A stretch of DNA of 64,000 nucleotides from Lumbricus terrestris (taxonomy: Eukaryota > Annelida > Clitellata > Crassiclitellata > Lumbricidae), in the NCBI GenBank assembly GCA_949752735.1, contig OX457043.1, positions 43,018,442 to 43,082,441 of the forward strand, written 5' to 3'. A program made the translations under genes and the position numbers. The notes beneath the pieces were generated by a model, which was given only the letters and a program-made list of their open reading frames with translations, was not told where the DNA came from and ran no database searches. Position 1 is the stretch's first letter, and each line of letters starts with the position of its first letter. Shown one piece after another: positions 2,743-43,157 of the stretch.

Positions 2743-3645
2743 TTATAATGTTGTCATTATATTTTTATAAGCATCCTTGCTCAACACCCCTTGTCTCAGT
2801 AATGCATCACACATCGCTACGATCTCGTTTCTTACCCCGGTATTGCCTACCTTGAAGCTTTGAATTCTTAACTCCAGCTGTTCCACCAATACATTAGGGT
2901 CTTCGGATATGACGATTACGCCGACGCCTTTACCTACCGTACCTAGGGTCATCTTTTCCCATATCGGTTTGATGATTTGTTTGTATTTGTCGCTTGAAGA
3001 TGATCTAGGTTTGTTTGGATTTTTTTCCTGTCTTATAGCATTCGTTGTGGTGAGAATCTCGGCGTAATCATCTATATCATTAACATCGTATATCGCGTCG
3101 TCCGGCTGTTTCATCGTCAACAACTCCCAAAGACCGGGTGTTCCTCTGTAAGTCTTATTTCCAACCGTCACATCGTCTCCTTGAATCGAAATCGGAGTGT
3201 CACCGATGTAGAATTGTCCATCTTTGGATTTTATTCCGAACGTTATGTCTGCGGTTCTTTTATCAGAGGCGTATTGAAGAAGGTACTTGGTTGCTACGCC
3301 TCCTAGTTCTAAAGTTCTAATATCTCCAATTGGGCCGGCGCTATACGCTTCTATCGAAGGACGCTGAGGAAATTGAAGACCCTGTAACGAAGCGGGGAGT
3401 GCTTGTAGCGCGTTTGAAGTAGCTACCGAGTTTTGATTGATGGCGGACAATAAGACATTTTGCTCTTTGGAAATTGCGGATTGTGAATCGACGATAGGTT
3501 TGAAGAACTTGGTTAAATCTTGCTGAAGCCCCGAATCTCCTAATCTCTTCGATAAAAAGTTTTGTTGAATATTCTTCTTTATGTTCATAAACTCCGTGAC
3601 TAAAAACTCTCTTTTCGCGGGGTCGGTTATTTTTATAAACGACAT
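2743..3645 (-). CDS. DUF8207-like virion-associated protein
   Basis: 300 residues from the chosen ATG at 3645; a longer reading starts at 3684. The inner start is preferred because the neighbouring paralogues all begin MSF-(Q/I)-KITDPAKR. Residues 1-75 form a helical head, and the central part is a coiled-coil-like linker. The C-terminal half carries the family pattern TFGIKSKDGQFYIGDTPI, then TVGNKTYRGTPGLWELLTMK, DDAIYDVNDIDDYAEIL and YKQIIKPIWEK. That pattern matches a domain I recognise from invertebrate Polinton-like elements (DUF8207). Its function is unknown; it lies within the capsid gene run. The head module is reused in the small genes at 3797-5202. Confidence 0.65.
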   Translation of the reverse strand: MSFIKITDPAKREFLVTEFMNIKKNIQQNFLSKRLGDSGLQQDLTKFFKPIVDSQSAISKEQNVLLSAINQNSVATSNALQALPASLQGLQFPQRPSIEAYSAGPIGDIRTLELGGVATKYLLQYASDKRTADITFGIKSKDGQFYIGDTPISIQGDDVTVGNKTYRGTPGLWELLTMKQPDDAIYDVNDIDDYAEILTTTNAIRQEKNPNKPRSSSSDKYKQIIKPIWEKMTLGTVGKGVGVIVISEDPNVLVEQLELRIQSFKVGNTGVRNEIVAMCDALLRQGVLSKDAYKNIMTTL

Positions 3646-3715
3646 TTTAAAATTAGAAACATAATGTTTTTCGACATGTTTCAAAACATGAGATTGAAGG
3701 TGCTGTCTGACTTCT

Positions 3716-3832
3716 TCTCACTCGTCCATCGCGACTTTCTTGTTATTGAATTCTTCAATCTCGCTCAGCATCGTCTCACTCTCACGTGAAATGATATCAT
3801 CTACGCGAGCTTCTGAAATATAGTACCTCCTG
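3716..3832 (-). pseudogene. Degenerate fragment of the DDIISxEEY-tail module
   Basis: Read on the minus strand, this stretch gives a damaged copy of the C-terminal module found in the neighbouring small genes: a DDIIS segment, then TMLSEIEEFNNKK and a terminal VAMDE before a stop. The ATG-bearing head is missing, and the fragment overlaps the 3' end of the 3797-4183 gene in another frame. It looks like the remnant of one more duplicate in the array. Confidence 0.5.
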
Positions 3833-4183
3833 ACTTATTCCTTGATTGCGTAACGATTCCGCTATGGTTGTAATCTTATTGCCCCAAATTTCTTTAATAT
3901 CGCTTAGAATCAGATAATATTCCTCAACTGAAATGATATCATCCACGAGAGCTTTTGTAATATGGTCGCTGATCGTGTTGAGTTTCGCGACAGCTTGCGT
4001 TTTGATTTCTTCATACATCTCAGCTTTCATCATCTGATTTTTATAGCTGTCGATTAAACTTCCCATCTCCGAATCACCTATTAAACCCCATAAAATTTGT
4101 TGATTATGTTCATCGATTATTTTCAGATTTTCTACAACGAAATCGGCTCTTTTCGCGGGATCGGTTATTTTTTGAAACGACAT
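3797..4183 (-). CDS. Small chimeric paralogue: DUF8207-type head plus helical tail module
   Basis: 128 residues from the ATG at 4183; a longer in-frame start exists 16 codons upstream, but paralogues begin at MSFQKITDPAKR. The head (residues 1-45) matches the N-terminus of the protein at 2743-3645. The tail (residues 60-110: AKLNTISDHITKAL, DDIISVEEYYLILSDI) matches the C-terminus of the membrane protein at 5357-6037. The final residues (LYFRSSRR) run into remnants of another copy, so the end may be eroded. No function is known. It belongs to a tandem series of such head-tail fusions. Confidence 0.5.
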   Translation of the reverse strand: MSFQKITDPAKRADFVVENLKIIDEHNQQILWGLIGDSEMGSLIDSYKNQMMKAEMYEEIKTQAVAKLNTISDHITKALVDDIISVEEYYLILSDIKEIWGNKITTIAESLRNQGISQEVLYFRSSRR

Positions 4184-4194
4184 TTTAAGTAAGT

Positions 4195-4325
4195 AAAAAA
4201 ATATAATGTTTTCAGACGTGTTTTTCGACATGTTTCAAAACATAAGTTGGACGTATTTCCAGACGTAACGACATACGTCTACATGTTTTCACGTATGTTC
4301 GCGTTAGTCGTTTTTTTTCTCAAAC
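4195..4325 (-). repeat. Intergenic repeat unit with AGACGTA...TACGTCT hairpin
   Basis: This AT-rich spacer holds a word block (ttttcgacatgtttcaaaac, then a hairpin with 7-bp arms AGACGTA/TACGTCT and a 6-nt loop, then acatgttttcacgtatgtt). The block recurs at 4700-4800 and 5211-5390 upstream or downstream of each chimeric gene. Conservation of spacer as well as coding modules shows that the whole unit was duplicated. The hairpin could serve in transcription or RNA ends; that is a guess. Confidence 0.65.
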
Positions 4326-4348
4326 ATATATTGAAAGTGCTGCCTGAC

Positions 4349-4684
4349 TTATTCCTCTTTGGTTTTAATCTTCTTGTTCCAAATTTTTTCAATCTCGCTT
4401 ATAATCAGAGAATATTCCTCAACTGAAATGATATCATCCACGAGATCTTTTCTAATATGATCGCTGATTGTGTTGAATCTCGCGACAGCTAGCTTTTTGA
4501 TCTTTTCATACATCTCAGCTTTCATCATCTGATTTTTATTGATATAGCTGTCGATTATATCTACCATCGACGAAATACCTAATCACATCAATAAATTTGC
4601 TTGATCATGTTCTGGGTTTGTTTTCAGATTTTCTGCAAGGAAAACGTTGATTTCCGCGGGATCGGTAATTCTTTGAATCGACAT
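4349..4684 (-). pseudogene. Chimeric head-tail paralogue with in-frame stop
   Basis: A full-length copy of the head-tail architecture starts at the ATG at 4684 (MSIQRITDPAE...) and continues in one frame to 4349. The frame is broken by a TGA about 33 codons in, just before the MVDIIDS segment. The tail is well kept (ARFNTISDHIRKDLVDDIIS, EEYSLIISEIEK). A shorter product could begin at the methionine at 4567. The head is more diverged than in the other copies, which fits a decaying duplicate. Confidence 0.55.
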
Positions 4685-4788
4685 TTTAAGTAAAAGAAAA
4701 AAAAATATTTTCAGACGTGTTTTTTAGACGTGTGAAAAAACATAAGTTGGACGTATTTCCCAACGTAACGACATACGTCTACATGTTT

Positions 4789-5202
4789 TCACGTATGTTT
4801 TGTCTTTTTGATAGATTCGTTTTTTGTTTTTCTACCTGACTTCTTCGTCACCTCGTTCACCACATCCATCACGACTTTAATTTTACTTCTAATCTCTTCT
4901 TTCTTGTTATTGAATTTTTCAATCTCGCTCAGCATCAACGAATATTCCTCATCTGAAATGTTATCATCCATGAGAGCTTTTTCAATATAGTCGCAGATCG
5001 TGTTGAGTTTCAGGTCAGCTAGCGTTTTGATCTTTTCATTCATCATCAGCTTTTTACAGATGTAGCTGGCGATTATACTTTGCAGTCCCGAATCTCCCAA
5101 TCTCTCCGATAAAAAGTTTTGTTGAAAATTCTTCTTGGTTTCCAGATATTCTGCAACGATAAACTCTCTTTTCGCGGGATCGGTTATTTTTTGAAACGAC
5201 AT
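4789..5202 (-). CDS. Small chimeric paralogue: DUF8207-type head plus helical tail module
   Basis: 137 residues, intact. The head MSFQKITDPAKREFIVAEYL, then NFQQNFLSERLGDSGLQ, is almost the same as the head of the 2743-3645 protein. The tail (LKLNTICDYIEKALMDDNIS, DEEYSLMLSEIEKFNNKKEE, IKVVMDVVNEVTKK) matches the C-terminus of the 5357-6037 protein and ends lysine-rich. It appears to join the 5' end of one neighbour to the 3' end of the other, probably by recombination between spacer repeats. Its role is unknown; a helical, soluble product is expected. Confidence 0.55.
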   Translation of the reverse strand: MSFQKITDPAKREFIVAEYLETKKNFQQNFLSERLGDSGLQSIIASYICKKLMMNEKIKTLADLKLNTICDYIEKALMDDNISDEEYSLMLSEIEKFNNKKEEIRSKIKVVMDVVNEVTKKSGRKTKNESIKKTKHT

Positions 5203-5210
5203 TTTAAGTA

Positions 5211-5390
5211 GAAAAAAATATAATGTTTTCAGACGTGTTTTTCGACATGTTTCAAAACATAAGTTGGACGTATTTCCAGACGTAACGACATACGTCTACA
5301 TGTTTTCACGTATGTTTGCGAATGTTAGATGTATTTCCAGACGTAACAACATACGTCTACATGTTTTCACGTATGTTTGCGTTAGTCTTT
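5211..5390 (-). repeat. Two tandem copies of the hairpin spacer repeat
   Basis: Two close copies of the spacer block seen at 4195-4325 lie here, each with the AGACGTA-ACRACA-TACGTCT hairpin (about 5279-5298 and 5339-5358) and the flanking acatgttttcacgtatgttt. The second copy overlaps the 3' end of the 5357-6037 gene. Confidence 0.6.
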
Positions 5391-6037
5391 TTTTTTCTCA
5401 AACATAGATTGAAAGTACTGCCGGGCTTCATCTTTTCCACGATCGATGAGTGATTTTTCGTCACCTCGTCCATCGCGTCTATCGCAACTTTAATATTACT
5501 CCTAATTTCTTCTTTCATGCCGTTGAATTTTTCAATCTCGCTCAGAATCAGGGAATATTCCTCGTTTGAAATGTTATCATCCATGAGAGCTTTTGAAATA
5601 TGGTCGCTGATCGTGTTGAGTTTCGCATCGGCTAGCGTTTTGATCTTTTCATGCTTCTCACCCTTCAACGCAAGCTTCTTACTGATATAGACACCGATTA
5701 AACCTAGCAACCCCATACCTATTCCCACTCCTTCCATAGCAATAACGATGGGTGCAGCGATTATAGTGGATAATACTCCGATTCCTGCAGCGCCGAGCCC
5801 CGTCCCAACCACTACGAGGGCGCTGCCTACTGAGCTGATTACGCTTACACTTCTATGGTACTTTTTACTCAACGCCGCTCTTTTGTCGCGTTCTTGCTCG
5901 ATTTCTTTCTTAATTTCACCAATCTTTTGGAGCCGATACGTTTGCGCCGACCCTGTGACGATATGTATTTCTCCTTCCGGTGCTGATGGTAGCTTCGGAT
6001 AGAGTGATTGTGTTGTTTTGATGCCGTCGTATTCCAT
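5357..6037 (-). CDS. Membrane protein of Polinton-like elements with helical tail
   Basis: 226 residues. Three parts are visible: a polar N-terminus with a proline-containing PKLPSAPEGE stretch; a charged helix (KIGEIKKEIEQERDKRAALSKKYHRSV); and, at about residues 68-115, two glycine/alanine-rich hydrophobic segments (VGSALVVVGTGLGAAGIGVL and an IAMEGVGIGMGLLGLIGVYI stretch) fit to span a membrane as a hairpin. The tail (KHEKIKTLADAKLNTISDHI, SKALMDDNISNEEYSLILSE) is the module copied in the chimeric genes. I recognise this protein type from invertebrate Polinton-like elements. Its function is unknown; a role in virion membrane interaction or entry is speculation. Confidence 0.6.
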   Translation of the reverse strand: MEYDGIKTTQSLYPKLPSAPEGEIHIVTGSAQTYRLQKIGEIKKEIEQERDKRAALSKKYHRSVSVISSVGSALVVVGTGLGAAGIGVLSTIIAAPIVIAMEGVGIGMGLLGLIGVYISKKLALKGEKHEKIKTLADAKLNTISDHISKALMDDNISNEEYSLILSEIEKFNGMKEEIRSNIKVAIDAMDEVTKNHSSIVEKMKPGSTFNLCLRKKKTNANIRENM

Positions 6038-15990: not shown

Positions 15991-16019
15991 AAATAACGAG
16001 GTAAACATGATCCCTCGGG

Positions 16020-17022
16020 AGTAGTGTAAGGACGAGTGTCTTGGAACAGGGCGGGGCTACCGCTAATCCCAGGCCCCTCCCCTTAGGCTGCTAGGCTATA
16101 GGCCACGCCCCTAGGGCTGCTAGGCTATAATTCTAATGACTTATTAATTACCAATTAGGCTAAGACGCTGAGCTATTACGTAATCCACCGGGCTACTAGG
16201 CTAAGACGCTGAGCTATTATGCTAATTCGCTAGGCTAAGACGCTGAGCTATTACGTAATCCACCGGGCTACTAGGCTAAGACGCTGAGCTATTATGCTAA
16301 TTCGCTAGGCTAAGACGCTGAGCTATTACGTAATCCACCGGGCTACTAGGCTAAGACGCTGAGCTATTAGGCTAATCCGATGCCCGCTGCGCTATAGCAT
16401 TAAGACGCTATTATGCTAATGAGCTAAGCAGTGCCCCAGCGGCCTGTCAATCAAACGAGCAGCCTAACCAATCAGCGCTAAGCAGTGATCCAGCGACCTG
16501 TCAATCATACGAGCAGCCCCGGAAAGCTGTAACCAATCATCGAGCAATTACCCTACACATCCGCGCCCGGTCCCAACGCGTAATTATCTCCTTTGATCAA
16601 TAATAACAGCAATTACCCGCCGACCGTTCCCAACGAGTAATTACCCTGCATATCCGGCGACCGTCCCAACGCGTAATTACTTCCTTTGATGGCTAATTAC
16701 AGCAATTACCCTACACAGGCGTTGCCCGTCCCAACGCGTAATTACCTCCTTTGATCAATAATAGCAGCAATTACTCGCCGACCGTTCCCAACGAGTAATT
16801 ACCCTGCATACCCGGCGATCGTCCCAACGCGTAATTACTTCCTTTGATGGCTAATTACAGCAATTACCCTGCACAGCCGTTGGTCGCGCCAAGGCATAAT
16901 TACAGAACCGGACGCGGCGCTCGTCCTTTCATGGCTAATAACGGCAATTATCCGCGGTCGTCCCAACGAGTAATTATCCTATGCATCCGGTGGATAAATA
17001 ATTTTCTTTGGTGTCTATCATA
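16020..17022 (+). repeat. Left terminal inverted repeat with internal tandem units
   Basis: The outer 120 bp match the right arm nearly base for base. Then come about three units of roughly 75 bp (aggctaagacgctgagct, attacgtaatccaccgggct...), then a region of about 65-bp units built on cccaacgcgtaatta and tcctttgatcaataataaca. The exact inner limit is blurred near ggtgtct at 17010-17022. Confidence 0.85.
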
Positions 17023-17175
17023 ATTTAAATAAGTATGAAAGAACAAACACATGGAATTTTCAAGCAATTTTTTTTTCAACACAAACCCTTTTCGTTAATA
17101 TAAATTATGTGATTATACTAGAGTTCGAATATTTACAACACATAATGTCCACTTCAATACTATTGCACAACACCT

Positions 17176-17181
17176 TTTATT
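17176..17181 (-). terminator. Polyadenylation signal AATAAA for the polymerase gene
   Basis: On the minus strand AATAAA lies about 57 nt past the TAG at 17238-17240. It stands in AT-rich sequence between the stop and the left terminal repeat. Confidence 0.55.
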
Positions 17182-17237
17182 TTACATGCGGCATTCGTCA
17201 CATTTAGCATAGTACGATTATTTTCAGCAGAGTATTA

Positions 17238-20200
17238 CTACAATTTATTTACAAACGAAATATTTACATGGCCATATGCAAAAGAATCCGACAAATTTAG
17301 CAGAAATCGCTTATCATCGTAAGGGGAAAGTGCTGCTTTGCGAAGTTCAGCCGTGTGTAGCTCATGCTTCCTGCTCTGTATAACACAGAATTTGGACGAT
17401 GTAACCTTTTCTTCAAAAATACAATTTCTATAGTCAGCATGTCGAATACACTTCTTCACGAACCCCCTCTTAATGCCTTTACCAGTCTTCTTTTCCTTAT
17501 CGTTTGGTAAGAGTAAACTGTACATCTTCGAACGGAGACCACAGAATTCCAAAACGGCATCGCCGTTACACTCATCTTTAAACTTGCCTATGACTTTGGA
17601 GTTTGTACGGCTATGCAAAAAGTGCCCACAGGGGTAGTCAGACGTGTCATATTCGTGCAGATTACGCTGCATGTCGGTATATACATCAGATGTGAAAATA
17701 TGGTAACAAAGGCTGTCTGTGTCAGTGAAAAGGAGTTTGCAAGCATTTCCATAAAGGGGTATTATATGCTGGTAGTGGAATTCGTACATTTTTAATTTAG
17801 ATATGTCCAAAATGCACATTTCGGCATAGAGGGGCTTGTTCAGATAGACGTTGGACGTTGTCAATTTCACGACTGTTAAATCTTCGTTGATTATGGTATA
17901 CGACTCGAAAGTCGGGCGGGCCACGAAACGTTTGGCTCGTTTCGCATTCATGACCAGCTTCACATCAAGCTGTTTCCTGTTGTTCCGCATGGTCTTACCA
18001 TAGATTGAATTGTTCATCAACTTATAAAGATCCTTTTCAAGCGAAGATTTAGCAACCTGTCGTTTGGATGTGTTAAAGTCGATGTATTTCTTCAACCACC
18101 GACTTTGCCGAAATTCGAGAATTTTGTGAATTTTGGTCAATTTCAGCCCCATTGTTATGTAGTATTGGAGATTGCGGTAGTGAACGACGTATCGGGTCTT
18201 TGCCATGAGGTTGGGCACCAACTTTTCGACCCCGGTACCGATTTTAGCCGAAATTTTGTGAGAAACGGACTTTGCGTAAGGAGATATCATGTCCGGTCGT
18301 ATGAGCAGTCTCTCAGGCGCAAGGGGATAGTCGTTGTGTGCGTCGTGGAGATGTGAAGGATATTCCAAGTCCACATCCAACAAATACCCCAAGTCGTCGT
18401 CTGTCGATTTAGTGTCCAAGTCGAAATTGCCAATTTCATTGTCGTCTAAAAATCTGAATTTGCCTGTCGGGAGAGGTTCGGACATGGCGTAACCGTACAG
18501 GTTATTGCAATCCAAGTACATTATGTAGCTGTTTGGAACGTTAGGGTCGTATCCTTGGGCGAGATACGGATTGTTGGCCTTTGCGTATCGATTGGAAATC
18601 ATTGACACGCCACCTCTCATGCCTCGCTCTACAAAAAGATAAATGTCCGGGTCGGTGATGAGCTCCAAATTCACCTTTGTCATACGTAAACAAGCGTCAA
18701 AGCTCAGTCCGGGGCTGCTGTAATAGTGGAGTGCGTCGAGTCCATAAAATTCCAACGACATGCTTCGAAACGATTCGAATACGTCGGCCAGTAAAATAAC
18801 GTCGGTCTGCAAGTACAAGTCGTGATAGTCCTGCATTGTCTGCATGTCGAACGTCTGCCAAATTTTCTGTGCGTAGTCATAGTCGTCTTGCGAAATGTTC
18901 TCTTCGGTCAGTTTACTGTAAAAGCAGCCTTTGGGAGGCAGAGTCCTTTCGGTCATTCTGCAGGCCGATGTCATGTATTCGTAAGGAAATACCCCCTTAC
19001 GCAAGAGCAATTTGAATTCGTTCGGAAAAAGCCGCCGTAAATGCAGAAATTTAGAATCATCTTCTTTAGACAGATTCTTCACCAACACATCCAAACTACA
19101 GTTTAGAAATTGCAACGAGTCCAAAAATCTGATGTGGTTCACTTCGAAAGAAAGATATTTTTCCATATTTGTGGCTATTACGTTAATTTCTTGCGTTGCA
19201 AACTCCTTTGTCATATGTTTGAGTATGAGGTGAGAGTCATAGCCTTTGAGGTTGTGGAAGACGACAGGAAGAAAATAGTTGGGCGTCTTCTGTTTCTTGG
19301 ATTTTGTGGGCTTACGAAATTTCATTTTTAGGTTACAAGGCGAGCAAAGAGCAGAAATAAAGTTACCAGTCATATGACAGTGGTGTCGAACTTTATTGTT
19401 AGGTGTGAAAGCTGTTGTGCAAGAGGGACAGGCTGTGCAAGATTCAAATTCTAGCCTCTGCTGCTGTGTCAGAGGCTTCATTGGCATGTTCGTAGCAAGT
19501 ATTTTATTAATTCGGGTCTGTTCAGATTTTACATGAGCAAAGAAGTTGCTCATAACGTCAGGACCCGAGTAGACGCATGGTTTGTTATCATCCAGGTGTG
19601 GAAAAGACGACACAGTCAGACAGCAGAATCCGCTGGGCGTATGAGTATCCAGAATTTTAGTTGAATTATTGCATGCGACATTTTCATTTGGAGCCAGATA
19701 ACTTTCAAAGTCTGCATACAGAACGTATGGGACAGGCATCTCGTGCTGCGTATTTGAGAATTTTAGATTGCAATTTTCACGAGTCGGATAACGTACGGAC
19801 TGAAGTCCGTGCTTGCCACATTCGTCCATGTGTGCATGTTTGCCAGCAGCGGTGGTGAAGCAGTACAGGCAATATGGACAAGGGAAAGAACGGTTATTGT
19901 GCGAATTTCTTCTCCTTAGAAGTGCAGAAAGGTTACGTACTACAATATAATGTCGTTTGGTGCCGTCGTCAAGCAAAAGAAGGTTTGCAATATGTTTCCT
20001 ACCCCTGTGAGCACTTGCGTATAAAGGCGTAAAGGTTTTGTCGTCTGAGTTAAAGTACATGACATTGATGGCATAATCGAGATTCATTGACTCAAAGAGC
20101 GAAATCTGTTCAATAGTCATGGGGAACTTTATATCTTTGGTGTGATGTTCATTCACATAACTTTTGTAGTGGTTGACTCTGTGCGGATTAGCACTTTGAA

Positions 20201-23200
20201 AATGTGAAATTGAAAGCAGGCTGTACACAAAGCAAAGATCGTCATCGTTTTGAATATTCAGAGTTGCATGCTTGTTTGCAATATATTGTGGTGTGGGTAT
20301 GTAGGTGGAGCCGCCTACAGGATCGTATATGGCATTGCACAATTTAAAATCAGTCACACCGTTCACTACCCACCCGGAGCTTTGTGTTGTAAACGTGTCG
20401 ACAAGTTGCTCGATTCTTTCGACAGCCTCCTGCAATTGGTCAGATATTTGCGACGGATGAGTCAGAGCAGATGGAATCGACTCGAAGTATCCGATCGTTT
20501 GCGCTTCTCCATCTGGGGTTGAACGTTTGAAATCGACATCAACAGCCACGTACCACTTCACCGGCCTAAACAAATATTAACCAAGTTCGTTATTTTTGTA
20601 TAACACGCACTTCGTATATCACGAAAATTGTGTAGCACGAATCTGCTAAGACCGAATATAGCAGATGGAATTTGCTTAAGTTTGCGAAAATTTACTAAGT
20701 TTGCAAATCTTGATCCAAATGCAAGTGAATTGTAGTTGCTCTAACAGAAATTTTCTAAGTGCAAGCAAAAATTTCTAAGTCCAGCATTTTAGAGCGAAAA
20801 TTTTCTAAGTACAAGAAATGCGGTTGCAAAATTTTCCACGTATATGCAGCAATTTAGAGTGCAAGATTTTTATAAGTTCCACGTTTAGATCAAAATTCTC
20901 TAAGTACATTTGTATGCATTACAAACTCACCCTTCATCTCTGAATGTATCCTCCAACGTGCTGATCAATCGTGTCGCTTCTCCCTGCAGCATGGCGTGAA
21001 CGTCGGTTGTTTGAGTCGTTGGAAAGGTTACATCTATGAATGTATTCTGAGTGGAAGTGTGGACGGCTGGGTTGAGCTGCTTCTTGAAGCATGTGACACA
21101 GAGATCCTGCCCAGCTCTGAAGAACCGGGAAGGTCGGCGTGTCTTACATTGAATGCACTCTTTGCGTAGAATGCAGGTTTGACAGAGTCCGTTCGTCAGA
21201 TTGAAAGCCTTGTAATTTCGACACGACTCGCATCGACCTAAAGATTAACAAACAAATTAAAGTTCAACAAGTTTCATTTTAAAAAGCCGCAAATAGAAAG
21301 AGATTTAGGTGTGCTTAGAGATTGTAAAAGGTGCATAGAGTACAATGTGTGTGTGTGTGTGTGTGTGTAACACATAGGAAGTCACAACAACTGCAAAAGT
21401 CTACAAGTATAGAGTACATGGGCGCCCGCTCATAGGGGCAAGGGGGGGCACTTGCCCCCACCTGGAAAGTTGAAACCTATTTTTCTAAATACTACTTTTG
21501 GGGTTTAAGAAATTTCTTCCCATTGAAATACTAATGTTACGAATGATACACTTTAGTGAAAGTCAGAAATTTAAGTAATGAAATCTCTTTAGAAATAAAG
21601 AAGCTATCTTAATTTTCTGCCTTGCATTATTTCAAGCTCTTGCTGAAAACGGTAACGATGACTTTTAATCTTCACGTGGGTGCCCATACAAATAGTATTC
21701 CTATTGATTATGGCCTACTTGTCTGGCATCTCGCTGAAGGCTAATGCAATTTTTCACAACTACACAAAAATTAATTATCAATAAATTACACTAATGTAAA
21801 AATTTGAAATTTATCAACAACCCATTGAAATTAAGTAAAAGAGATATACATATTCACCAGCGTTATATATGGAATCAAGTCTGCTTTAAGTCAGGCTGCA
21901 TTTTGTCCATTTTGCATGTTGCCAAGTAGTACAGAATTTAGGTAGGTCATGCTGTAGATAAACTTGGATAATTGGCTCTGGTTATCACGCCTCGAGATTT
22001 TCTTCAAAAACCAACGTCTCCTCTGTTCAAAAGAGTTGATACTCCATTCTTCTGATCCTTGGGATCCTCCACCTTCCTAAATGACACCTGCATTAACATC
22101 TGACCCTCTGGCTACCGGACTCGGACCTCTTTCTTGACTACCCTTTGAACAGCCTGATGACTCGATGCAGCGCTTCTGAATAAGCTGGCGCCCTACAATT
22201 GACTTTGGAGTGCACTTTAGAAGTTTAGAAATTGCGATTAAAATATAGAAGTTACTTGATGGAGCACTTGCCCCTTTAAAACTGATACCTGTTTTTCGTT
22301 CATTTATTCATTCATTCATTATATAGCGCCCCTTAAAAACCTACTTTTTAACATTCTACTTTTGATTTTTAATAAATTTCTTCGCACTAGAAAAACTATT
22401 CATATTGAAAATGAGAGGTCTACACAAAATTAAGCTGAGAAATATGCATTAAGAAACCTTTTTGAAAAATCCCATGCTCTCACTTTCCAGCTTTGCAATT
22501 TTTAAGCTCTTGCAACTAGGAAATTTAACCGTGACCACCTTAAAAATTTTGCCCCCCCTGCAAAAATTTCTGCGGACGCCCATGATAGAGTACAATGTGT
22601 ATATGTGTGTAACACACACAGGAAGGCATAAAGATTGTAAAAATGTGTATACCTGAAGCTGCAGACTCTGACGAAGACGGTCCTGTACGGGACTCTGGCG
22701 CCTCGGGCGAAGCCGAGGCTGCGTGGGTTTCTGCCGCTGCCGCCGCCGCCGCCGCCGCCCCTGTTCGGAATCCTAGCGCGGCCGTCGAAGACGGCCCTGC
22801 TCGGTGTTCGCCATCACCAAGATCTGCACAACAGAAAATTGCTAAGTACATAAAAGTTTGTATTGGCAGAATAAGCACGAATTTGTATTGCTAGAGGGGT
22901 TATGCTACTACTTTGTAAATATCGCAACGTAAAAGTAATAGGAAAGTCCTTTATGCTAACGAATACTAAAAATTCGTGTCAGACTCACTATATGAACAAT
23001 CCGTATGCTAATAAAGTGAAGAATTTATGGTCGATAAAAAGTGCCATCACGTATATTTTAGGAAGTTGTAACACAGAGGCTTCCTCGTCAAAGATATAAT
23101 ATGTTAGAGAACGCTTGTTGAAGCAAAATTATATGGAATCACTAACTTGTACGCTTGGCATCTCGAATGATATTCGAATCGACCTCTCTGCGTTTCCGCT

Positions 23201-23605
23201 CTGCAATAGAATTTTAAAATGCTGTAAAATATTTTGCCCAAGTTCTTTTGCAGTAGGCTATAAATTATTGCAAAATATAAATCGGAAGAAGCCTAATGTA
23301 GCATAAAAAGAGTTCATTTTGACGAAATGTTATTTGACTAGAGCTCGAAAGTTCATAAATATTATCTGTTTATTGAAGAGGTGAATAAAATTAATGTACT
23401 AATACATACTCAGTTCATGCAGTTTTGCCACACGAAGTTTAGATTCTATAGAAAAAAATAACATATGTGTAAAGCGTCAAATGCAATAATATCTGCGCAA
23501 AGAAATTTAAGTTGTAGTTTGTACAAGTCAGGAAATATATGCCAAATAGAGAAATTCCTGCCGTTCATTAAAATAATTTACAGTATTATACTCACGGGAA
23601 CTCAT
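17238..23605 (-). CDS. Spliced family-B (Polinton/protein-primed type) DNA polymerase
   Basis: Four coding exons: 23596-23605 (ATG AGT TCC C), 22653-22823, 20931-21237 and 17238-20565. All have GT/AG borders and phases that fit (1, 1, 2), giving about 1271 residues. Exon 2 encodes a poly-Ala/Ser/Pro linker. Exon 3 encodes a Cys-rich domain (CESC, CQTC, CIQC, CVTC). Exon 4 has a C2H2-like CPYCLYCF...H...C, exonuclease motifs YADFES, NLKGYDSHLI and YHDLYLQTDVILLADVFE, a VRHHCHMTGNF...CSPCNL zinc site, and polymerase motifs A (YLDCNNLYGYAM), B (KLMNNSIYGKTMRN) and C (FTDTDSL). All catalytic Asp residues are present, so an active enzyme is plausible. It should copy the element's linear DNA. Confidence 0.88.
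21417..22584. mobile_element. hAT MITE (CATGGGCGCCCG family), copy 1, in polymerase intron 2
   Basis: 1168 bp. Ends CATGGGCGCCCGC and GCGGACGCCCATG are inverted repeats. Exact 8-bp target duplication atagagta (21409-21416, 22585-22592). The inner ends share gcacttgcccccacctgg-type and gcaaaaatttctgc words with copies at 29422 and 42301. No ORF. Confidence 0.85.
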
Positions 23606-23714
23606 GCTGTAGTTGTAGTAAGCGTCTGACTCTGCGTAATCGGTAGAACGAATTGCTGCTCTCGGCTGTTGAACTCGGAAACTCGTCTGTGTTTAGCTGC
23701 TATCTGAGTCCGGA

Positions 23715-23721
23715 TTTTATA
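23715..23721 (-). promoter_or_regulatory. TATA box of the polymerase gene
   Basis: TATAAAA on the minus strand, about 110 nt upstream of the ATG at 23605, inside the right terminal region. It fits a pol II start roughly 80 nt before the ATG. Confidence 0.6.
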
Positions 23722-23784
23722 GAGCGCTGGAGGGGTGGTGACACCATAAGAGCCGGAAATGGTGTAATAGTATGCCTCTTTGTA

Positions 23785-25067
23785 TCTTTGATTAAAGACA
23801 CCAGATATTAAAGGACATCAAAGTCCGTAATTATGCCTTGGGTCGTTTGCCGGATATGCAGGGTAATTACTGCTATTATTGATCAAAGGAGGTAATTACT
23901 CGTTGGCCGGGTCAGCGGCTGTGTAGGATAATTACACGCTGGGAGGTCGCGGATGTGCAGGATAATTGCTGCTATTATTGATCAAAGGAGATAATTACGC
24001 GTTGCATCGGTCGCCGGATGTGTAGGGTAATTACTCGTTGGGACGGTCGGCGGGTAATTGCCGTTATTAGACATGAAAGGACGAGCGCCGCGTCCGGTTC
24101 TGTAATTATGCCTTGGCGCGACCAACGGCTGTGCAGGGTAATTGCTGTAATTAACCATCAAAGGAAGTAATTACGCGTTGGATCGGTAGCCGGATGTGTA
24201 GGGTAATTACTCGTTGGGACGGTCGGCGGGTAATTGCTGTTATTTTTGATCAAAGGAGGTAATTACGCGTTGGGACGGGCAACGCCTGTGTAGGGTAATT
24301 GCTGTAATTAGCCATCAAAGGAAGTAATTACGCGTTGGGACGGTCGCCGGATATGCAGGGTAATTACTCGTTGGGAACGGTCGGCGGGTAATTGCTGTTA
24401 TTATTGATCAAAGGAGATTATTACGCGTTGGGACCGGGCGCGGATGTGCATTGTGCAGGGTAATTGCTCGATGATTGGTTACAGCTTTCCGGGGCTGCTC
24501 GTATGATTGACAGGTCGCTGGATCACTGCTTAGCGCTGATTGGTTAGGCTGCTCGTTTGATTGACAGGCCGCTGGGGCACTGCTTAGCTCACTAGCATAA
24601 TAGCGTCTTAATGCTATAGCGCAGCGGGCATCGGATTAGCCTAATAGCTCAGCGTCTTAGCCTAGTAGCCCGGTGGATTACGTAATAGCTCAGCGTCTTA
24701 GCCTAGCGAATTAGCATAATAGCTCATCGTCTTAGCCTAGTAGCCCGGTGGATTACGTAATAGCTCAGCGTCTTAGCCTAGCGAATTAGCATAATAGCTC
24801 ATCGTCTTAGCCTAGTAGCCCAGTGGATTACGTAATAGCTCAGCGTCTTAGCCTAGCGAATTAGCATAATAGCTCATCGTCTTAGCCTAGTAGCCCGGTG
24901 GATTACGTAATAGCTCAGCGTCTTAGCCTAATTGGTAATTAATAAGTCATTAGCATAATAGCCTAGCAGCCCTAGGGGCGTGGCCTATAGCCTAGCAGCC
25001 TAAGGGGGAGGGGCCTGGGATTAGCGGTAGCCCCGCCCTGTTCCAAGACACTCGTCCTTACACTACT
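23785..25067 (-). repeat. Right terminal inverted repeat with internal tandem units
   Basis: Inverted relative to 16020-17022. It has one more of the roughly 75-bp units and an extra block of the taattac/cgttggga units, so the arms differ in length by almost 300 bp. The outermost 120 bp are nearly identical to the left arm. Confidence 0.85.
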
Positions 25068-25073
25068 CTCGGG

Positions 25074-29421: not shown

Positions 29422-29966
29422 CATAGGCGCCCGCACACAAGGGGCAAGAGGGGCACTTCCCCCTCCCCCTTGGAAAATTGACATCTATTTTTTATTCACT
29501 ACTTTTGTAGTAGGCCTTCTAATATCTTCTCATCAGAGAATTGATTATATCAATAATGAACAAAGTGAAACTAAGAAATCTACGTTTAGAAACCTCCATA
29601 TTATAATAAGCATGCTTTCAATTTTCTGCCCTGCTTTTTTCAGGCTCTTGCTAAAAACTGTAACCATGACCATTGGGTTCATCTGATCCTCGGATCGTCC
29701 ACCTTCTAATCCTAAATGGCACCCACCTTAACAGCTGCTCCGCCCCCTCTGCCCTTCTGGATTCGAAACTATTTCACAAAGAAAACTATTCATATTAAAA
29801 ATTATAGAAAAATGAAATTGAGAAATATACACTAAAACATTCTATGAAAAACACCCATGCATGTTCCTATTTTTCTTCTTTGCATTGTCCAACTGCTTGC
29901 TACAAACTTTTTTGACCGTGACCATCGTGTTTTGCCCTCCTGTAAAAATTTCTGCGGGCGCCCATG
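29422..29966. mobile_element. hAT MITE (CATGGGCGCCCG family), copy 2
   Basis: 545 bp, ends CATAGGCGCCCGC / GCGGGCGCCCATG. Flanks ccagctgc and cctgctgc form an 8-bp duplication with one mismatch. Shares gggcacttcccc and aaaatttctgcgggcgccc with copies 1 and 3. Confidence 0.78.
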
Positions 29967-34020: not shown

Positions 34021-34593
34021 TGTCAATCTCCAATTGACCTTCAAAGTTTTCTTCCTTTTTCTTCTGTGTTCAGTAGCGCAGCCTACGCCCAACCTAGTCA
34101 CTGTACTTCGATATCTAAAGCTAGTGTATAAGTTTCTAAAGTTCTTAACTTGTTCAATTACAACAAAGCTCTGTTTCTTGTATTTTCTTCTTTCTTCATA
34201 AACAACGCAAATAACACAACAAAGGATCAACGACGACAAACGCTTGAATTCAACGACAGCAACGCAACTATTATTATCTAACTCCACTGTTCTCTAAAAC
34301 GTCTTCTACTCTCTACTACCAACTCCTTCTTCTACAACTTAACTCACTGTCTAGGCGTACACTCTTCCCCTTACCGCTCTGTCCTTCTATCTGCCTCTCT
34401 CCGTCTATCTGTCCGTCTGTCTGTCTGCCTCGCTCTCTCTCTCGCGCTCTCCGGCGACGGTCGGCCGAGCCGCGCCAACTTTCCCGCCAGTCTGTCACCT
34501 GCAGGCCTAACTGTCTAGACGCTGACCTTGAGCTGGTCTATTCGTACGCCTAAACATCAACTGACCACTTAGACTATACAAAATTAGCTCACA
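34021..34593 (-). repeat. 3' LTR
   Basis: 573 bp, plus-strand ends TGTCAATCTCC...TTAGCTCACA, no difference seen from 40967-41539. It contains CT-rich runs and a ctgtctgtctg stretch. Confidence 0.92.
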
Positions 34594-34613
34594 TTACCTC
34601 CCTCCTTTCTTTT
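34594..34613 (-). promoter_or_regulatory. Polypurine tract
   Basis: On the minus strand AAAAGAAAGGAGGGAGGTAA directly abuts the 3' LTR start (TGTGAGC). This is the expected primer site for plus-strand synthesis. Confidence 0.8.
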
Positions 34614-34706
34614 AAAGAGAGCTAATTATCTATAAAAATTAGCGAACGTACCTTAACTAAACAATGCAAATAGTCTATAACATAATACATCATAAAATAT
34701 CTTACA

Positions 34707-37700
34707 CTACAATCTAGACAGACAATCAGCTACTACATTCAATTTACCTTTCTTATAGTTCAACAGAATGTCAAAATTTTGCAATGATAAAGACCATCTG
34801 ACTAATTTAGCAGATTTCGACATTGATTCAGTCAAATAAACTAAAGGATTATGGTCTGTAAACACATTGATTTTAGAACCAATAAGAATTTCTTTCAACT
34901 TGTTTAAAGCCCATATGATTGCATAGGCTTCCTTCTCAATCGTCGCCCACCTCCTCTGAGTATCTGTCAGCTTCTGACTGATAAATGAAACAGGACGTTC
35001 AATCCCTTCCTCGTCCACCTGAGACAGTACAGCTCCCACAGCAAAATCACTGCTATCACAGTACAAATTAAATGGTTTCCCAACCTCAAACATATATAGA
35101 ATCACATTTGATAAAACAATCTGTTTAAGGGAATCAAAAGATTTCTGATGTGCATCAGTCCAAACAATGTTCTCAGGTACTTTCTTGCTGGTCAAGTCTG
35201 TCAATGGTTTAGCAATTTCAGCAAAATTACAGATAAACTGTCTGTAAAATCCAAAAAATCCTAAGACTTGCTTCACTTCCTTCCTGGTTTCAGGTTTCTT
35301 CAAATTAATTAAACTGTCAATCCTGTCTGGATTCATCATCTTCTTCCCTGATCCTATGAGGTGACCGATGAACTTCACCTCACTCTTACCAAACACACAT
35401 TTCTTCAAGTTCAATGTTACATTATGCAGTCTTATTTGTTTCAAGAATAATTCCAAATGTCTTAAATGAATGTCCCAATCATTCGAATGCACTGCAATGT
35501 CATCAACATAAGGTTCAGTAAAATCATGAATCGGTTGCAAGATCATATTTATCGCTTTTACAAAAGTCCGTCCAGAGTTAATCATTCCAAACGGAACACG
35601 CGTAAATTCATACAGTCCATTATGTGTAACAAACGCAGTCTTCCATTGGTCACTCTTTTTCACAGGACAAGTCCAATATGCACTGCGACAGTCCATAACA
35701 GAAATGAACTTGGATTTTCCAACTTTGCTCAAGACATCGTTGACGATTGGCATAGGATATCGGCAGTTTTCAGTAAAAGAGTTAATGTATCTGTAGTCAC
35801 AAGCCAATCTCAAGGATCCATTCTTCTTTTTGACAATGACAAGTGGACTTGCCATTCTGCTTGACGATGGTTGAATGATGTTTTCTTTCAGCATCTCTTG
35901 TATTTGTTTTTCCACTTCTGCTCGGTATATTAGTGGTATTCGATATGCCACGAATTCTTTTTCTCGAAAGTCTGGTCTCAGCACCACTTCGTGTTCTACT
36001 AATGTACATAGTCCAGGTTGGTCTGAAAATCTGTCTGCATATCGATTCAGTACATCAAGTAATTGTTTCTGCTGTTCGCTGGTCAGATGTCCAATTTGTT
36101 CGTAATCCAATTGAAGTGACTTCTGTTTTGTCTCTGAATAGTCTTCCTTCAGCGGTATTTCTACCACTGATCCAAATTCGTCATCCTCTTCCACGATCAG
36201 ACCACAAGACAATGTTCTCGTAATGAACTTCCTCATCTTGTTAGCATGAATAATCCGTCGACCATTTTCGTTCATGTCCACCAGATACGAATATTTGGAT
36301 CTTCTTTGCAGGACCGTGCATGGACCATGCCATCGGGAGATCAATTTATTGGTTGACGTTGGATACAGCACGATGACGTTCTCTCCTGGCTCGAATTCTT
36401 TATCTTTTGCTCTTTTGTTGTATTGACTGGCGTACTGTTTTTGCTTTTCTTCAGCACAACTCTCGGCGAATGTCAAGGCCTTTTCCATGTCTGCTCTTAA
36501 ATTCTTCAGGTACTTTGCCGGTTGCACTCCAATGTTCGGTGGTAGATTTATTTCTTTGGTCCAGCTTTCTTTAAGGATGGTGAGTGGCCCTCTCGGCAAC
36601 TTTCCATAGACCAGCAAATACGGTGCTACTCCTGTAGTTGCATTAGGCACTTCTCTCAATGCCCAGACTGTAAATGGAATAATTTTATGCCACTGTCTCG
36701 GATTTTCCACAACGACATGATGAATCATTTTCTTGAACGTTTGATTCCATCTCTCCACCAATCCTGCCGCTTCTGGATGTCCTGGCGAATCGAATCGAGG
36801 ACAACACCCCATCAGTTTCAGAAATTCTCTTGTTAGACTGGCTGTGAAATTCGTCCCTCTATCGCTCGTTATCACTGACGGAACTCCCACATCCATGAAC
36901 AGCTTCATCAAAGCTTCGCATACAGCCTTAGCGGTCAATGACTTCATCAAGAATATTGTCGGCCATCTTGTACATGAGTCCACGATGCACAAACAATACT
37001 TATGCCCTGCTGCTGAAGTCGGTTCGATTGGTCCTACGACGTCCATGGTCATTCTTCTGAACGGTACATCCTCTCTTGGTATTGGTGTAATCGGCACTCG
37101 ATCCATCACCAAACTTCGTGCTTTTAACTGACACTTCTCACAGGACTTGCAGAACTTCACCACATCTCTACGCATTCTTGGCCACACAAAGGACAACTTG
37201 ATACGTTCCCTTGTCTTCTCTTCTCCCAAGTGTCCGCCAAATACTGACTCATGTGCCAATTCCATCACCTGAATTCTTCTTTCCTTCGGCAACACCAACT
37301 GATACACCAACTGGTCCAACATTTGATGCTTCTTATACATCAACCCATTCACCACACTAAACTCTGATCCTTTGTCTTCAGCTATCTTCCACCACGACCT
37401 CAGTGACTCGTCATTTCTCTGCTGCTCTTCAAATTTCTTTGCGTCTGCTAATTGTCTTTCATCACTCGTATTCTCGGCAAACAAATCCCTCATACTCGTG
37501 TCTATTTCACCATCACTTTCAGAATCATTATCATTATCACGTTCACATGCAACCATCTCTTCTTCAATTTCATTGTTTCCGGATGTTATTCCTTCTTCTT
37601 CTTCTTGAACGCTTTGTTCATCATCGCTTTCTGTGTCCTCATCTAGCAAACTTTCATTTGACTTTTCCTCTTCTCCTTCTTCCACTTCTCTTCTCCGACT

Positions 37701-40385: not shown

Positions 40386-40585
40386 CTTTCTTCTTTACTT
40401 CAGTGATTACCGTGAAGAAATCAAGGGAGTGGCTATGAATATCTGTGATTGGCTGACTTTAATTCTTTTGGCTCCTTGGGTAAACAAGCAAGTTTTGTAT
40501 ACCTCTCTCTGGCGTTGCGTTGTCGTAATGTCGTTCGTATGCCCGTTGTATCTTCTCACCAGACTCCGAAATGCGTCTCCAATCG

Positions 40586-40912
40586 TAAATATTCCTCCAA
40601 TTGAAAATATTCCTCCGACTGAAAATATTCCTCCAATTGAAAATATTCCTCCAAATGAAAATATTCCTCCAAATGAAAATATTCCTCCAAATGAAAATAT
40701 TCCTCCAAATGAAAATATTCCTCCAAATGAAAATATTCCTCCAAATGAAAATATTCCTCCAAATGAAAATATTCCTCCAATTGAAAATATTCCTCCGATT
40801 GAAAATATTCCTCCAAATGAAAATATTCCTCCAATTGAAAATATTCCTCCAAATGAAAATATTCCTCCGATTGAAAATATTCCTCCAAATGAAAATATTC
40901 CTCCAATTGAAT
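40586..40912. repeat. 18-bp minisatellite in retrotransposon 5' leader
   Basis: About 18 units of aatattcctccaaatgaa with mostly single-base variants (aat/att/gat). Because 18 is a multiple of 3 without stops, it creates open frames on both strands (a NIPPNE repeat on plus, a LEEYFH repeat on minus) that are probably not genes. Confidence 0.85.
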
Positions 40913-40945
40913 TCGCTATCCCAACATCCTTTGCTTGAATTCAGT

Positions 40946-40963
40946 ATCCCGCCGCTGCCACCA
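40946..40963 (-). promoter_or_regulatory. Primer-binding site
   Basis: TGGTGGCAGCGGCGGGAT on the minus strand, three bases after the 5' LTR end. It starts with the TGG that pairs with a tRNA CCA end; the tRNA species is not assigned. Confidence 0.65.
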
Positions 40964-40966
40964 AAA

Positions 40967-41539
40967 TGTCAATCTCCAATTGACCTTCAAAGTTTTCTTC
41001 CTTTTTCTTCTGTGTTCAGTAGCGCAGCCTACGCCCAACCTAGTCACTGTACTTCGATATCTAAAGCTAGTGTATAAGTTTCTAAAGTTCTTAACTTGTT
41101 CAATTACAACAAAGCTCTGTTTCTTGTATTTTCTTCTTTCTTCATAAACAACGCAAATAACACAACAAAGGATCAACGACGACAAACGCTTGAATTCAAC
41201 GACAGCAACGCAACTATTATTATCTAACTCCACTGTTCTCTAAAACGTCTTCTACTCTCTACTACCAACTCCTTCTTCTACAACTTAACTCACTGTCTAG
41301 GCGTACACTCTTCCCCTTACCGCTCTGTCCTTCTATCTGCCTCTCTCCGTCTATCTGTCCGTCTGTCTGTCTGCCTCGCTCTCTCTCTCGCGCTCTCCGG
41401 CGACGGTCGGCCGAGCCGCGCCAACTTTCCCGCCAGTCTGTCACCTGCAGGCCTAACTGTCTAGACGCTGACCTTGAGCTGGTCTATTCGTACGCCTAAA
41501 CATCAACTGACCACTTAGACTATACAAAATTAGCTCACA
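40967..41539 (-). repeat. 5' LTR
   Basis: 573 bp, identical by eye to the 3' LTR. It carries the promoter for minus-strand transcription. Confidence 0.92.
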
Positions 41540-42300: not shown

Positions 42301-43149
42301 CATGGGCGCCCGCACATAGGGGCAAGAGGGGGCACTTGCCCCCCTGGAAAAGTGACACCTGTTTCTCAAACTGCTACTTTTGGGTTTTTAACAAATTTCT
42401 TCAATTTAGTGAATTAATTATACTAATGACGGACAAAGTTAAACAAAGAAATCTACGTTTAGAAACCTCTATATATAAGATAAAAATGCTTTGAATTTTC
42501 TGTCTTGCATTTTTCAAGCTCTTCCTTAAAACTGTAACCCTATAACCATTGGGTTCCACTTAAAACTGAAGTCTCGTCTGCTCAAATGAATTCCTACCAC
42601 TATTCATCAGATCATCGGATCTCCCAGCTTCCAATCCTAAATGACACCCACTGGAGCAGCTACTCTGCCCCCCCATCCGCCCCTCTGACAACCGGACTCG
42701 GACCTCATTCTGACTACCATTTGACAGCTCTTTGACTTGATGAATAAGCTGGTGCCTGCGATTGACTTTCGAGCTAAAAGTTTGGAATTACGATCAAAAT
42801 ATAGTTAGTCTAACTATATAACTACAGAGGGAGCATGCATGAATAGCTGAATGAGAAATGGTGTCAATTTTCTAGAGGGCAAGTGGACGTATCGCACCCA
42901 TTCAGGGACCTGCTTTTTAACTACTAATTTTTGATTTTTTTAAACAACTTTCTTCGCACTAAAGAAACTATTCATATTAAAAATTATAAGAACATGACAC
43001 TGAGAAACATACATTAAAAGCGCTCTATGAAAAATACCCATGCATCTTCCTAGTTTGCTGCTTTGCATTTTTCATCCTCTTGCAACAAAAATGTAACCGT
43101 GACCATCGTGTTTTGCCCCCTCCTGCAAAAATTTCTGCGGGCGCCCATG
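42301..43149. mobile_element. hAT MITE (CATGGGCGCCCG family), copy 3
   Basis: 849 bp, ends CATGGGCGCCCGC / GCGGGCGCCCATG, exact target duplication atccgggt (42293-42300, 43150-43157). Most intact copy of the family in the window. Confidence 0.88.
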
Positions 43150-43157
43150 ATCCGGGT

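Follow-up and report, generated by a model that had tools for sequence, protein, structure and literature searches.

A Polinton-like element of Lumbricus terrestris with a spliced DNA polymerase as its only recognisable gene, and its palindromic relatives

The window analysed here, a stretch of 64,000 nucleotides from Lumbricus terrestris (assembly GCA_949752735.1, contig OX457043.1, positions 43,018,442 to 43,082,441 of the forward strand), harbours at positions 16020–25067 an integrated element, designated W, of 9048 bp with outer ends AGTAGT...ACTACT and one recognisable gene, the spliced gene (polB) of a phi29-type DNA polymerase. Exact coordinates and alignment confirm what a preliminary description of the window had stated of its termini, namely Polinton-type ends, a 6 bp target-site duplication (TSD; CTCGGG) and inverted repeats of about 1 kb (Table 1; L-numbers denote other loci and P-numbers database open reading frames, ORFs). 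By blastn the terminal inverted repeats (TIRs) match in two pieces, one of 370 bp at 97% identity and one of 843 bp at 96%, that overlap inside tandem repeats, and as a single gapped alignment they are 89% identical over 1062 columns; the left TIR contains 75 bp and ~158 bp tandem repeats, and related repeats occur elsewhere in the genome. Some time after W had inserted, intron 3 received a nested insertion of about 1.17 kb, with relatives at 29422–29747 and 42301–43151 of the window, and the element proper is therefore ~7.9 kb.

The polymerase gene, predicted to have five exons, comprises about 1287 codons by hand count. Exon 5, for which the ORF tool gives an open frame at 17238–20573 on the minus strand (1111 aa), reads in order as a TP-like beta/alpha start, an OTU-like part with Cys114 and His208, an exonuclease and a palm, the domains having been named by eye and not matched individually; Polinton PolBs have been described as TP-vOTU-exo-palm proteins (PMC11071308). 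Exon 4 is a well-supported prediction, with 73% amino acid identity to L036, from which it is saturated at synonymous sites, and 32% to L035. The predicted exon 3 is weakly conserved and less firmly placed (31% amino acid identity to L036), and exons 1 and 2 are putative, positioned from splice signals and from the start MSSRE that is also readable in L015.

Pfam searches with the W polymerase returned zinc-finger-type matches below cut-off only, and PDB sequences nothing significant. The protein is identified as a PolB because of its relatives and its fold: 3055 relatives were found, some carrying PF03175 at 52% identity, and in a fold search with an AlphaFold2 model (mean pLDDT 86.9, pTM 0.85) the nine best PDB matches were all Phi29 DNA polymerase, with target-normalised TM scores of 0.63–0.70. 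It is likewise by PF03175 homologues and phi29 fold that we class it as a Polinton-type PolB; Pfam does not reach the W sequence directly. The PolB of the Parasteatoda house spider adintovirus is 43% identical. In alignments of 22 and 31 rows the columns that are invariant or almost so include residues of the exonuclease and polymerase motifs; the presumed OTU-type residues Cys114 and His208 are conserved, and a helix and a strand lie at these places in the model. The polymerase is presumably protein-primed, and may provide the priming function itself.

The other Polinton genes queried against W by tblastn gave no match, in agreement with the earlier statement that polB is the only gene inside; the queries were the integrase (INT), major capsid protein (MCP), ATPase and PLA2 of a neighbouring full Polinton, named by Pfam (the integrase below cut-off and partly by eye), and the INT, MCP and ATPase of viral contig L001, named by eye. 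Pfam was also run on ten further frames, taken from the window, L035 and L036, and no match passed its cut-offs.

Table 1. Features of element W and of the adjoining full Polinton (window coordinates).
Feature	Start	End	Strand	Remarks
Right part of neighbouring full Polinton	1	10599		begins L034:3938; TSD CCCAAC; ends AGTAGATAGATTAAGAC
Left TSD, CTCGGG	16014	16019		exact repeat of 25068-25073
Left TIR	16020	16990	+	starts AGTAGTGTAAGG
polB exon 5	17238	20565	-	stop codon included; acceptor TTTAG/G by eye
polB exon 4, Cys-rich (zinc-ribbon-like) part and linker	20931	21237	-	GT/AG borders by eye
Nested later insertion in intron 3	21421	22582		ATAGAGTACA at both flanks; borders approximate, flanks by eye
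polB exon 3 (putative), low-complexity, Ala/Gly/Pro/Ser-rich	22653	22823	-	GT/AG borders by eye
polB exon 2 (putative)	23153	23200	-	GT/AG borders and phase by eye only
polB exon 1 with start codon (putative)	23596	23605	-	ATG, then GTGAGT donor, by eye
Right TIR	24014	25067	-	ends CCTTACACTACT
Right TSD, CTCGGG	25068	25073		exact repeat of 16014-16019

W belongs to a family that is dispersed through the genome (1.056 Gb, 331 contigs). The left repeat gave 93 matches of 66–100% identity, mostly in inverted pairs, among the 40 candidates scored of 206 seen at first look. Of 23 repeat-bearing loci fetched, 18 were resolved into elements with ends and an exact TSD, as were all three loci chosen by polB alone and not by repeats (L035, L036 and L037), so that, W included, 22 of the 27 loci examined are resolved. 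Each of these 22 has an exact 6 bp TSD different from all the others, and left and right TSDs crossed between elements as a control matched in 0 of 462 pairs; a TSD, with one mismatch allowed, was itself a criterion in finding the ends, and the TSDs of L022 and L023, which lie in simple-repeat flanks, say little. By content the elements fall into 13 with polB (7485–10334 bp, median 8437 bp), eight palindromes (6941–7956 bp, median 7566 bp) and one with neither. Their termini are AGTAGT in 19 and AGTAGA in three, and TIRs of about 0.5–1.2 kb are present in 12 of the 13 polB elements, L027 having matching ends only. L027 (567–9255) is an intact polB element with the exact TSD AATGAT whose two ends are alike in their first bases only; they look as if derived from two different elements, and L027 may be a related recombinant. 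The element with neither polB nor palindrome, L020:635–5548, is 4914 bp long with 1 kb inverted repeats, the TSD GACGGG and a repetitive interior.

The INT, MCP, ATPase and PLA2 queries matched none of the 22 resolved elements by tblastn. For the 13 polB elements this comprises two integrase queries (0 of 13, with the L035 element searched up to its last 157 bp), two ATPase and two MCP queries; the INT panel does match integrases on two unrelated metagenome-bin contigs at 23–30% identity. The copies thus bear out the polymerase-only layout, which 13 share, and the 6 bp duplication, and W is not a one-off internal-deletion derivative: none of the 22 copies matched the other Polinton genes searched. 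Two further ideas were rejected. A two-part system, in which copies lacking polB would carry the integrase, fails on the finding that eight of these nine copies are palindromes and that all nine lack a recognisable gene, apart from the first 48 polB codons retained in L021; and a fixed packaged length was not upheld, elements ranging from 4914 to 10334 bp.

The last exon is uninterrupted in 8 of the 13 polB copies, and 38 of the 41 polB matches scored in a genome-wide listing lack a stop. Among W, L011, L012, L015, L027 and L037 (15 pairs) dN/dS is 0.098–0.200 at dS 0.19–0.43; in six pairs with L036 it is 0.041–0.060 at dS of about 1.8–2.4; and against L035 dS is beyond estimation, with dN about 0.34. 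Lineages of differing depth, namely the W type, L036 (85% amino acid identity) and L035 (60%), share the layout. Since dN/dS is low even where synonymous sites are saturated, the polymerase-only elements are an old, maintained lineage under strong purifying selection, and a gene so selected from one polymerase-only element to the next does something for those elements. Outside exon 5, the coding conservation found between W and L036 lies in polB exons 3 and 4 and in frames overlapping them, two low-complexity matches having been set aside.

A full Polinton of about 16.7 kb, 5.4 kb from W, allowed the family to be compared with a resident element of the usual kind. A DJR capsid, an A32-type ATPase and a PLA2-like protein are found in it over Pfam cut-offs and an integrase core below cut-off, with an adenain-like ORF seen by eye; its polB is interrupted by a stop and its integrase is frame-shifted as read by eye, so that this copy is damaged, though of the type we propose as integrase donor. 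Three further copies of its left end begin at the same base, with other flanks. It shares AGTAG ends and the 6 bp TSD length with the small elements, without any repeat similarity, and its PolB is 39% identical. Within it, at 3524–5667 of the window, lie several tandem copies of a gene or segment, 78–93% identical. At least 101 loci, including L034:4476–8258, carry a polB of full-Polinton type 92–100% identical to the C-terminal piece of this neighbour, many with uninterrupted frames of about 1265–1340 aa, and represent a large, recent Polinton expansion in this genome.

In a tree of 121 rows, made by a quick method, a branch with SH-aLRT support of 100 parts a group of 76 rows, in which the C-terminal PolB piece of the resident Polinton stands with adintovirus and viral-contig PolBs, from a group of 45 rows with eight of our own polymerase-only PolBs (those of the 13 long enough to enter). 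Fourteen database ORFs judged to begin at the intron site, together with 10 continuous ORFs, all fall in the 45-row group; the 14 were picked by eye, and P0023, P0062, P0067 and P0089, which start as near to the site and were not picked, fall in the 76-row group. The start positions suggest that these foreign polB genes may also contain introns. Listed MCPs lie within 15 kb of polB at 8 of 101 loci of full-Polinton type versus 0 of 79 others (Fisher p 0.0098), a comparison that draws on 126 MCP candidates, the best-scored of 645 seen at first look, and on sampled polB lists rather than censuses; the spliced kind of all 79 was judged from query and frame length, and checked in sequence where loci were fetched. 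First-look counts of 1611, 1579 and 1237 are word hits common to several queries, not copy numbers. W had been described as a stripped Polinton, and it had been asked whether full Polintons share its TIRs. For the one resident Polinton compared neither is so, its polymerase being of another clade and its repeats unrelated, and W is not a deletion derivative of it.

The palindromic derivatives are the best evidence for how these elements replicate. Eight of the 22 elements are near-perfect palindromes, the symmetry extending over at least 97% of each, with arms 98.4–100% identical where aligned, gaps uncounted, and ungapped stretches down to 95% in L018, L023 and L024; members of one palindrome family differ by 2–7%. 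Their flanks are not inverted (identity 0.00–0.33 over 30 bases in all eight) and the TSD is direct; the palindrome therefore existed before insertion. L021 follows polB element L022 to base 3182 and then continues on the reverse strand from 3324 back to the end, the jump falling at a shared TTGATCA, a 7 bp inverted match with a 135 bp spacer. The two are 99.8% identical over two stretches of 2.3–2.4 kb; their outer ~1.07 kb match at 96%, and L021 has about 220 bases more there. L021 arose from a polB element by a strand switch at this 7-base match. Chimeras made by Phi29 polymerase in vitro, in displacement synthesis, are inverted with intervening deletions in more than 85% of cases, and more than 70% are primed at matches of 2–21 nt (PMC1855051). 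The palindromes would be mis-replication products of linear DNA copied by strand displacement, through a template switch onto the displaced strand. L023, L024, L025 and L030 are palindromes 95–98% alike with four different TSDs, and seem to multiply as palindromes. Over the first 700 bp of the end repeats in 11 of the 13 polB elements, identity is 0.905–0.999 within an element and 0.49–0.94 between elements, which suggests that every cycle renders the two ends alike.

We think it likely that this polymerase-only family copies itself as linear DNA with its own polymerase and owes its insertion to an integrase acting in trans, probably that of Polintons. The polymerase gene would be transcribed and spliced in the nucleus, and its product would use strand displacement to replicate the element as extrachromosomal linear DNA, a mode proposed because of the polymerase type, the homogenised end repeats and the palindromic products. 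Linear copies ending AGTAGT...ACTACT would then be inserted with 6 bp duplications by an integrase that the elements do not themselves encode. Full Polintons would most probably provide it, being the simplest source because terminal bases and TSD length are the same, as they also are in vertebrate Mavericks ((AGT)2//(ACT)2, 6 bp; PMC8097293). That the polymerase is under selection from copy to copy suggests that the enzyme, with an OTU-like protease part of its own, acts preferentially on its own element. The palindromes may be second-order parasites that have lost the polymerase too and live on their ends. The preliminary description had called W self-copying and trans-mobilised: the purifying selection fits the first, and the shared AGTAG ends and 6 bp TSDs fit the second, which we infer.

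Several observations weigh against this reading. The integrase donor is presumed, and the neighbour's integrase looks frame-shifted; full Polintons here have AGTAGA, so that AGTAG is in common with the small elements and the repeats are not. Expression of the polymerase and an extrachromosomal DNA stage are likewise assumed. L027 lacks the long inverted repeats that the copying model needs, and breaks the homogenisation rule. Arms of palindromes L018 and L024 contain stretches of only 95–97% identity, and five of the 13 polB copies are broken (L013, L014, L016, L022 and L026). The survey of repeats covered just those 40 of 206 candidates, and five of the 23 repeat-bearing loci (L028, L029, L031, L032 and L033), without resolved ends, could differ. 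One of the 79 spliced-type loci, that of W, lies 16.2 kb from a capsid gene, which is the neighbour's, and at 25 kb the count becomes 8 versus 1. The comparison of W with L036 disclosed no coding conservation other than polB, but a protease gene was not queried directly.

Of the alternatives, the one that survives best, which we nevertheless consider unlikely, is that the elements are capsid-borne satellites, their DNA being packaged in the capsids of full Polintons and spreading from cell to cell or host to host as that of a virophage or satellite virus does. The polB clade is present in many database contigs, and within it P0001, which comes from another source, groups with L035; polymerase elements and palindromes are similar in median size. 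Against this, no capsid gene was found in the elements (a packaging signal was not looked for), and their size is not fixed, one being 4914 bp and one 10334 bp, while the likeness in size may reflect common ancestry only. In separate scans of viral contigs, at the level of DNA and of protein, no family member turned up, and two virus-like contigs with a 37–38% identical PolB were all that came out; one scan of bacterial and archaeal genome contigs gave seven short metagenome-bin contigs, none useful as an element, two of which have integrase matches beside polB.

That the elements are internal-deletion derivatives of full Polintons, akin to MITEs, in which polB was kept by chance and which multiply wholly in trans, is quite improbable. 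Many non-autonomous element families arise by internal deletion, and the ends and TSD are Polinton-like; yet the polymerase falls in a different clade from that of the single resident full Polinton entered in the tree, the end repeats are unrelated to that Polinton's, purifying selection extends across saturated synonymous distances, and three lineages as far apart as W, L036 and L035 share the layout. Full autonomy, with an unrecognised integrase in the poorly conserved 5' part or in the N-terminal polymerase exons, is highly improbable: about 3 kb upstream of exon 5 are not fully explained, and two upstream frames that were scanned (the exon 3 frame of the window and the exon 4 frame of L036) have no Pfam match, but no coding conservation between W and L036 was found outside polB exons, and exons 1–4, about 536 nt together and partly of low complexity, would be too little for a DDE integrase domain. 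It is scarcely credible that palindromes and inverted end pairs were created artificially, by the assembly or in amplified libraries, even though Phi29-amplified DNA makes such inverted chimeras (PMC1855051) and long reads can fold back (PMC12870357), as an artefact would invert the flanks too, whereas these differ in all eight palindromes, a direct 6 bp TSD is present in all eight (that of L023 within a GAT repeat), and the polymerase-bearing elements are independent of the palindrome question.

Elsewhere in the window, a young LTR-type retroelement occupies 34021–41539 between 573 bp direct repeats (34021–34593 and 40967–41539) that are 100% identical; its single ORF of 1895 aa has integrase domains before reverse transcriptase and RNase H, an unusual order, and we take it to be Gmr1-like. 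Minisatellites lie at 40577–40911, 50669–51347, 58675–59029 and 60518–60858; the last two are relatives of each other, lying in inverted orientation, and each resembles that at 50669–51347.

Returning to copying by an own polymerase with insertion in trans, the reading if true would split the 'self-synthesizing' Polinton into separable functions, copying (kept and selected) and insertion (borrowed), and the palindromes would make the replication mechanism of Polinton-like elements readable base by base, as genomic fossils of strand-displacement replication in vivo. We lean slightly towards the wider view that these elements form a separate, ancient class of self-replicating, integrase-less Polinton satellites, with a spliced PolB clade in many animal lineages and a second tier of palindromic parasites. 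Polymerase-only elements may occur commonly under the annotation of orphan polymerases. Surveys that seek adjacent integrase and polymerase matches would miss them, as appears to hold for the vertebrate Maverick survey in its available text (PMC8097293).

In the literature searched, with Repbase entries and the founding papers outside the search, we found no description of integrating polymerase-only Polinton elements or of their palindromes, and none could be recognised in the available portions of PMC11071296, PMC6431247, PMC3511435, PMC3671162, PMC12721341, PMC11071308 and PMC8097293. Capsid-less Polinton-derived replicons and orphan Polinton-type PolB genes are already known, and there is a fair chance that the present elements are a class of their own. 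With Polintons/Mavericks (Polintoviricetes) they share AGT-type ends, a 6 bp TSD, long inverted repeats and a Polinton-type PolB; vertebrate Mavericks have (AGT)2//(ACT)2 or (AG)3//(CT)3 ends with 6 bp TSDs and, where intact, intronless ORFs (PMC8097293). They differ in that no integrase, capsid or ATPase gene was found, in their half length, in an intron-split polB and in their separate clade. They likewise share a homologous PolB with adintoviruses, whose defining features are PolB and hexon and whose integrase carries a chromodomain (PMC11071296), whereas here PolB is alone, with no hexon or integrase match, on the other side of the basal split of the tree. Entamoeba histolytica has four stand-alone Polinton-type PolB genes, for which integrase, protease and ATPase were not found and assembly error or gene loss was considered (PMC3511435); the PolB type is in common, and the available account describes no ends or TSDs there. 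Strand displacement by the Entamoeba enzyme has been assayed in vitro (PMC3511435). The elements of L. terrestris, as integrated chromosomal elements with TSDs that are not packaged in virions, also differ from adenovirus defective genomes, which they resemble in being palindromic. Those genomes have duplicated inverted ends and are palindromic products of protein-primed strand-displacement replication, packaged in virions. A further parallel is with a Polinton-derived replicon without a capsid, as are cytoplasmic linear plasmids of the yeast pGKL type, which are regarded as (proto)polintons that lost their morphogenetic module and which have a TP-vOTU-exo-palm PolB (PMC11071308). Unlike these extrachromosomal plasmids, the small elements show no second gene and are integrated with TSDs (13 resolved with polB, and at least 79 such polB loci); they offer an integrated counterpart of the proposed transition from Polinton to linear plasmid, and if our reading is true would stand to Polintons as an integrating linear plasmid to a virus.

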